In this document: one piece after another, positions 51,241 through 51,738 of the stretch
Layout of the letters: each line of letters starts with the position of its first letter
Numbering within the stretch: the first letter of the stretch is position 1
Assembly: GCA_944387555.1 (NCBI GenBank)
Contig: CALXFH010000003.1
Location: forward strand, 1 to 64,000
Source of the DNA: an uncultured Clostridia bacterium
Lineage (GTDB): Bacteria; Bacillota; Clostridia; TANB77; CAG-508
Length of the DNA: 64,000 nucleotides
Reading direction: 5' to 3'
Made by a program: the position numbers and the translations under genes
The notes under the pieces: model-generated
What the model saw: only the letters and a program-made list of their open reading frames with translations
Told to the model about the DNA's origin: nothing
The model's database searches: none

Positions 51241-51320
51241 CTAACTAATTTTATTTAGCTTACTAACCAGATTTTGTAATCGCGTCTGTTGATTAGTAAT
51301 TTAAAGCTACTCCCTTTTAA
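51231..51320 (-). promoter_or_regulatory. yybP-ykoY (Mn2+) riboswitch
   Basis: On the minus strand the RNA starts AAAAGGGAGTAGC and ends TTAGCAAGACTTTT, the two most conserved blocks of the yybP-ykoY class. P1 is TTAAAAG with CTTTTAA, an inner helix is TTACTAA/TTAGTAA and a small hairpin CTAA..TTAG precedes the end. It lies in the leader of a P-type ATPase, a usual target. Confidence 0.87.
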
Positions 51321-51439
51321 TTATTTATCTTTTTTATTTATATTCATTTTTTATTACTTTATGATTATAACATAAGATTTTTAGATGTCAACAAAAATTT
51401 TTAAATTAAAAATATTTTATAAAAAAATGTAAAATTTAA

Positions 51440-51468
51440 TTGATTAATTTATTTAAATATTGTATAAT
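51440..51468 (+). promoter_or_regulatory. promoter of the small hydrophobic peptide gene
   Basis: TTGATT (51440-51445), a 17-bp spacer and TATAAT (51463-51468). The transcript would begin near 51475. Confidence 0.75.
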
Positions 51469-51507
51469 ATTTTTGTGTCTGCCTTCCTAAAGGAGGTGAA
51501 ATTTATT

Positions 51508-51576
51508 TTGGCACACTTGTTAAAACTTGTTGTACTAATCTTAATCTATCTTATTTTAAAACTATTTGATGATTAG
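51508..51576 (+). CDS. 22-residue hydrophobic peptide, candidate type I toxin
   Basis: A start codon TTG at 51508 lies nine bases after a strong AAAGGAGGTG. The peptide begins MAHLLKLVV, is almost all Leu/Ile/Val in the middle (one membrane span) and ends LKLFDD. A promoter lies upstream and a bidirectional terminator starts 10 bp after the stop codon. An opposite transcript covers a near-copy of its ribosome-binding and start region. Small membrane peptides in this setting are usually type I toxins (Fst group). I do not recognise the sequence itself. Confidence 0.65.
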   Translation: MAHLLKLVVLILIYLILKLFDD

Positions 51577-51586
51577 TACATAAATC

Positions 51587-51624
51587 AAAAAAGACTAGTT
51601 GTTCTAGCTACTCTAGTCTTTTTT
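51587..51624. terminator. bidirectional terminator shared by convergent transcripts
   Basis: AAAAAAGACTA pairs with TAGTCTTTTTT around a 16-nt loop, so both strands end in a T run. Confidence 0.8.
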
Positions 51625-51703
51625 GTTGTGCCTTTATTTTGGCATTCCTGTTAAAACTATTACAGAAATTAGACATATTTTCAATTTTTTATTTTATTTC
51701 TGT
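51587..51703 (-). ncRNA. candidate antitoxin RNA
   Basis: About 116 nt, driven by a perfect minus-strand promoter and ended by the shared terminator. It has no reading frame with a binding site. It contains the complement of the start region of the peptide mRNA through the 26-nt repeat and can pair at the terminator stem too, as RNAII does with RNAI in par of pAD1. Confidence 0.65.
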
Positions 51704-51709
51704 ATTTAC

Positions 51710-51738
51710 ATTATACTTTAATAAACCTTATTTGTCAA
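51710..51738 (-). promoter_or_regulatory. perfect consensus promoter of the antisense RNA
   Basis: On the minus strand, TTGACA (51738-51733), a 17-bp spacer and TATAAT (51715-51710). Nothing but the short RNA lies downstream of it. Confidence 0.85.

Follow-up and report, generated by a model that had tools for sequence, protein, structure and literature searches.

Must a par-type antisense circuit be built around an Fst peptide? The question is raised by a chromosomal locus of an uncultured gut Clostridia species, located at positions 51440-51738 of the window, the 64,000-nt stretch of DNA analysed here. The par layout consists of convergent promoters, a shared bidirectional terminator, a direct repeat at the start codon, a 5' stem-loop that sequesters the Shine-Dalgarno (SD) sequence and a short hydrophobic peptide (PMC7472228). 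In all these layout features the window locus resembles par of pAD1 (Fst/RNA I-RNA II) of Enterococcus faecalis, and we consider it very likely to be a type I toxin-antitoxin module of the par type whose peptide toxin represents a new family; its toxicity and transcription we infer. All elements that the first-pass annotation had listed for 51440-51738 were found in place, correct to the base. The anatomy, observed directly except for the predicted RNAs and fold, is as follows:

51440-51468, plus strand: promoter of the peptide mRNA (RNA I-like), TTGATT-17-TATAAT, 10/12
51475-51627, plus strand: predicted peptide mRNA (RNA I-like) of about 150 nt, its ends placed by the promoter and terminator positions and the fold
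51480-51498, plus strand: 5' stem-loop predicted by folding to sequester the SD, TGCCTTCCTAAAGGAGGTG
51490-51496, plus strand: SD AAGGAGG, seen in the sequence
51502-51527, plus strand: direct repeat copy 1 (DRb-like) over the start codon, TTTATTTTGGCACACTTGTTAAAACT, supported by the swap test below
51508-51576, plus strand: ORF of the 22-aa hydrophobic peptide MAHLLKLVVLILIYLILKLFDD, TTG start at 51508 and TAG stop at 51576, supported by a conserved family and its codon-position pattern
51587-51624, both strands: bidirectional intrinsic terminator with a 12-bp perfect stem (arms AAAAAAGACTAG at 51587-51598 and CTAGTCTTTTTT at 51613-51624), a 14-nt loop and a T-run on each strand
51587-51703, minus strand: predicted antisense RNA (RNA II-like antitoxin) of about 117 nt, its ends placed by the promoter and terminator positions
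51633-51658, plus strand: direct repeat copy 2, TTTATTTTGGCATTCCTGTTAAAACT, its complement within the antisense RNA
51710-51738, minus strand: promoter of the antisense RNA, TTGACA-17-TATAAT, 12/12, a perfect consensus

The convergent promoters and the shared terminator had been claimed from the letters alone and are both confirmed, as are the strong binding site and the hydrophobic reading frame. The claimed 26-nt repeat over the start codon, with its complement in the minus-strand RNA, also holds, the two copies sharing 23/26 identities. In addition, an inverted repeat TACAGAAAT/ATTTCTGTA (51661-51704, minus strand) lies where the antisense RNA is predicted to start and has similar counterparts in several relatives; it may form a protecting 5' hairpin.

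Promoters, a terminator and an ORF might coincide by chance in AT-rich intergenic DNA. Consistent with such a coincidence, the promoter-like sites alone are non-significant in this AT-rich region, with 4 seen and 3.7 expected from shuffles. The SD stem-loop of the window locus is no tighter than with shuffled leaders. The repeat behaves otherwise: 100 dinucleotide shuffles yielded no 26-mer match better than 20/26, against the observed 23/26, and the gapped repeat score of 37 was reached by 5 of 20,000 dinucleotide shuffles. Among the 11 SD-led short ORFs of the 64-kb window, only that at 51508-51576 has a comparable repeat.

Comparison with homologues is more decisive. We assembled 57 loci from the genus and family, of which 46 are non-redundant (<75% identical over the locus), and scored the start-codon region of each locus against the post-stop region of every locus. 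This swap test is informative because a par-type start-codon region has to correspond to the antisense RNA from the same locus, with no need to match any other. The repeat score averaged 32.5 for own-locus pairs, compared to 16.9 +/- 0.55 for permuted pairings, and none of the 20,000 permuted pairings, the highest of which scored 19.4, reached the own-locus value. The own 3' half was the best partner in 38/46 loci, and an earlier swap test on 29 loci gave an agreeing outcome. The start-codon repeat is thus private to each locus, a covariation that is observed directly. An SD, a terminator and a second repeat copy past the terminator, scoring above the cross-locus 99th percentile, occur together in 36/46 loci; the repeat does not exceed this percentile in 10/46.

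The remaining RNA features are conserved as well. A terminator is present in 45/46 loci, compared to 23% of shuffled sequences, with an A-run on its left arm in 40 loci. Promoter-like sites do reach significance across the homologues: the antisense promoter scores at least 10/12 in 98% of them (11% of shuffles) and the mRNA promoter in 52% (5% of shuffles), with a spacer of nearly always 17 nt. Across the 46 loci the native leaders hide the SD more than shuffled ones do (p=6e-5). For the second repeat, DRa, the score was 19.5 versus 17.6 for permuted pairings (reached by 0/20,000), and the own partner was best in 4/46 loci, weakly suggesting that this par feature also occurs in the homologues. 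The shuffles and the cross-locus permutation test together rule out a chance repeat in AT-rich DNA. Since the repeats match locus by locus in 46 divergent, conserved homologues, coincidence is refuted as an explanation of the locus, and we assign it a negligible probability.

The same specificity appears in predicted duplexes. The mRNA of the window locus pairs with its own antisense RNA at -37.6 kcal/mol. An orthologue at the same site in another genome (G127) carries a different repeat, matched on both its sides; its own duplex is predicted at -36.5 kcal/mol, and the two cross pairings between the loci at -27.7 and -15.5 kcal/mol.

The first-pass annotation had stated that its reading would be refuted if relatives did not conserve the peptide and repeats; both in fact recur in many species, with locus-specific repeats similarly placed. 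At the DNA level, a relative of nearly full length turned up in another species of the genus (G026), along with shorter matches. Searching 211 congeneric genomes with a peptide profile gave matches that sit in the same layout; of the best 30, 26 have a usable SD ahead of a peptide of 18-26 aa. A richer profile found the peptide in 68/287 genomes sampled from the order, representing 15/45 genera, nearly all of the host family. Among genomes from the rest of the class it was found in 2/341, both of the host family and one being the window's own genome, and among those of the phylum in 2/348, one again being the window's own; one provisional profile match (G745) falls outside the host family. Because matches beyond the host family are so few in class and phylum, the peptide family looks restricted to it, as far as these profile searches indicate. 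When 84,980 named genomes were scanned with a degenerate DNA pattern, the matches that had an SD-led short ORF came almost only from uncultured Clostridia MAGs, many of animal gut origin. A further match in the window's own genome (G000:C11) is a stop-broken piece of another sequence and was rejected.

Conservation at the codon level distinguishes the peptide core from its N-terminus. Between loci, variation at codon positions 1/2/3 is 0.41/0.08/0.60 in the core, the pattern that would be expected of a constrained, conserved hydrophobic helix. By contrast, the N-terminal codons under the repeat vary freely (0.56/0.39/0.65).

We then asked how this peptide relates to Fst, which the first-pass annotation had judged it not to resemble. 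No match came from PHROGs, nor from Pfam or NCBIfam with the cutoff relaxed to E<=10; the Fst_toxin profile PF13955 does not match the peptide and is absent from the genome. None of the 46 peptides has a PxxxG-type motif (P/D/S/TxxxG) in the transmembrane helix, and none has a Trp, the residue conserved before the charged tail in Fst/Ldr. The conserved Trp position of Fst/Ldr is a Val in Fst-pAD1. Alignment scores against four Fst-family peptides were 19-26, little higher than those of shuffled peptides (17-19). By these tests the peptide belongs neither to Fst/Ldr nor to any named Pfam, NCBIfam or PHROG family, which bears out the earlier judgement; without a profile match, PxxxG or Trp, and with near-shuffle alignments, the peptide was therefore filed as a new family and not as an Fst member. 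Our searches of these three collections gave it no family name, and no publication on it turned up in the literature searched. At the RNA level, the only Rfam candidate, RefA9, was rejected, with 25.3 bits and E 0.18 against a gathering score of 49, and is missing from twelve other loci.

A related reading accepts the same mechanism and differs only on ancestry, holding that the peptide descends from an Fst-related one. Shared descent would fit the layouts, which are identical and place the repeat alike with respect to the start codon; Fst and window peptides also resemble each other in being short and single-helix with a charged tail. Weighed against the missing profile matches, the lack of PxxxG and Trp in all 46 peptides and a likeness barely exceeding that of shuffled sequences, we regard such an ancestry as rather improbable, at about one chance in several, and retain the new peptide family as our preferred reading.

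Known systems were compared on the same footing. As a positive control, the same script was run on four Fst-family loci, either annotated as such or supported by the literature, that are carried by plasmids of Lacticaseibacillus, Lactobacillus and Macrococcus; they were fetched with the published Lpt conserved core (PMC11352940) as query, the ends of which are approximate. In these loci the repeat spans -10 to +27 around the start codon and has a copy past the terminator, placed as in the window locus, which supports the claimed pAD1 par layout (RNAI/RNAII). Compared to par of pAD1, the window peptide is shorter (22 versus 33 aa) and shows neither the PxxxG motif nor the Fst signature of Pfam; moreover, DRa is weak, and the predicted antisense RNA of the window locus measures about 117 nt. 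The Lpt and Lpt-like systems of Lacticaseibacillus plasmids, also of the Fst family, have convergent RNAs, a 24-nt repeat that spans the start codon and a hydrophobic peptide of about 29 aa (PMC5608710). The window locus shares the start-codon repeat, the hydrophobic peptide and, by prediction, the convergent RNAs with Lpt, the layout of which we measured in one such locus (L237), whereas the APLLVG-type Fst core of Lpt is not in the window peptide. Type I systems of Clostridioides difficile (CD2517.1-RCd8, CD2907.1-RCd9, CD0956.2-RCd10 and others) have convergent overlapping RNAs and small membrane toxins and occur also in prophages; direct repeats are not mentioned in the text of the review (PMC6563280). 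By prediction, the window locus shares with them convergent overlapping RNAs and a small membrane peptide, but the C. difficile toxins are of 34-59 aa with a lysine-rich tail and a long continuous antisense overlap, unlike the window locus.

The layout is also found with other peptides. Two loci of the same genome, at C3:106667 and C8:11534, encode the different peptides MGNNDLIVFLVMLVIVLAYGNKDQD and MDSNQLIVFLVTLVIVLAFGNKDKS, respectively, both with repeats, and the variant peptide MGKWLKLLAKIYVLTLLYKIFKDFCD occurs in relatives. The stretch TACATA-AAAGACTAG before the terminator occurs exactly three times in the genome, namely at the window locus and at these two loci. Judging from these sequences, at least one further peptide type uses the same RNA layout. 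Predicted duplexes favour the own partner: the mRNA of the window locus, at -37.6 kcal/mol with its own antisense RNA, reaches only -14.3 and -15.5 kcal/mol with those of the two paralogues. We tentatively suggest, at somewhat less than even probability, that the RNA circuit of par acts as a modular chassis for several unrelated toxin peptide families, the repeats of which diversify fast enough to stop cross-talk between coexisting copies. These families would include Fst in Bacilli, and at least an IYLILK-type and a LIVFLVMLVIVL-type in the host family of uncultured gut Clostridia. The window module would mean that antisense circuits of the par type can do without an Fst peptide and are common among uncultured gut Clostridia, and dozens of natural repeat variants are on offer for testing how antitoxin specificity evolves.

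By analogy with par and Lpt, we propose a working mode in which the plus-strand mRNA would encode a single-helix hydrophobic membrane peptide, and the strong convergent promoter would constitutively produce the antisense RNA. The latter would pair with the mRNA via the shared terminator hairpin and the start-codon repeat, thereby blocking ribosome entry, the 5' stem-loop keeping the SD closed until this pairing. Once the antisense RNA drops, upon DNA loss or stress, the peptide would be made and damage the cell membrane. Transcription of both RNAs, the antisense block of translation, membrane toxicity and a stabilising or addiction role are all drawn from these two models.

The same antisense circuit could instead hold at a low level a non-toxic, small regulatory membrane protein. 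The toxic effect of the window peptide is argued from analogy, no function has been proven for chromosomal homologues of par (PMC7472228) and the window locus lies among housekeeping genes, all of which would suit a regulatory role. The genomic distribution points the other way, and we hold this alternative to be unlikely. The window copy sits between a P-type ATPase gene, which has a Mn2+-riboswitch-like leader, and tRNA-Glu; this gap is 693 bp here, compared to about 80-460 bp, free of the locus, in most relatives, so that presence and absence at one site are observed directly. A family member lies next to the same riboswitch-like motif in G127, and G103 holds two family-1 copies in the gap, one without a stop codon; other relatives have a Fic-family gene or other ORFs there. 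The family is also observed on phage contigs, with the degenerate DNA pattern placing the locus on five IMG/VR contigs, once inside a phage head/tail gene cluster. Patchy sites together with phage-contig, tandem and decayed copies are, as far as sequences tell, what a mobile and decaying module of the addiction type would leave behind, and suit the par-type toxin-antitoxin reading better than a regulatory protein.

When viral contigs were searched for related loci, tblastn confirmed no relative, perhaps owing to the shortness of the peptide, where the degenerate DNA pattern succeeded; tblastn found no match in annotated collections of phages and plasmids either, but the low-complexity filter may hide such a peptide. 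The chassis pattern gave mostly chance matches in viral contigs. One family member (L168, about 9000-9100, minus strand) directly precedes the tape measure gene within a cluster of phage structural genes. Three family members stand in tandem, about 310 bp apart, in G232:C99 (2312-2999), and two loci (L249 and L259) retain the TACATA stretch and terminator remnants without a peptide ORF, as decayed copies.

Two species hold a Fic/DOC-family gene in the ATPase/tRNA-Glu gap (L224, 1926-2579, minus strand, Pfam E 3e-8; L216, by resemblance only), and the gap therefore looks like a small insertion hotspot in these sequences. The ATPase leader element itself (window 51243-51327, minus strand) is conserved in 25 congeneric loci and ends in a terminator hairpin; ranked by E-value, the Rfam family that matches it best is the Mn2+ riboswitch yybP-ykoY (RF00080), with 18.6 bits and E 0.0014, far below the gathering score.
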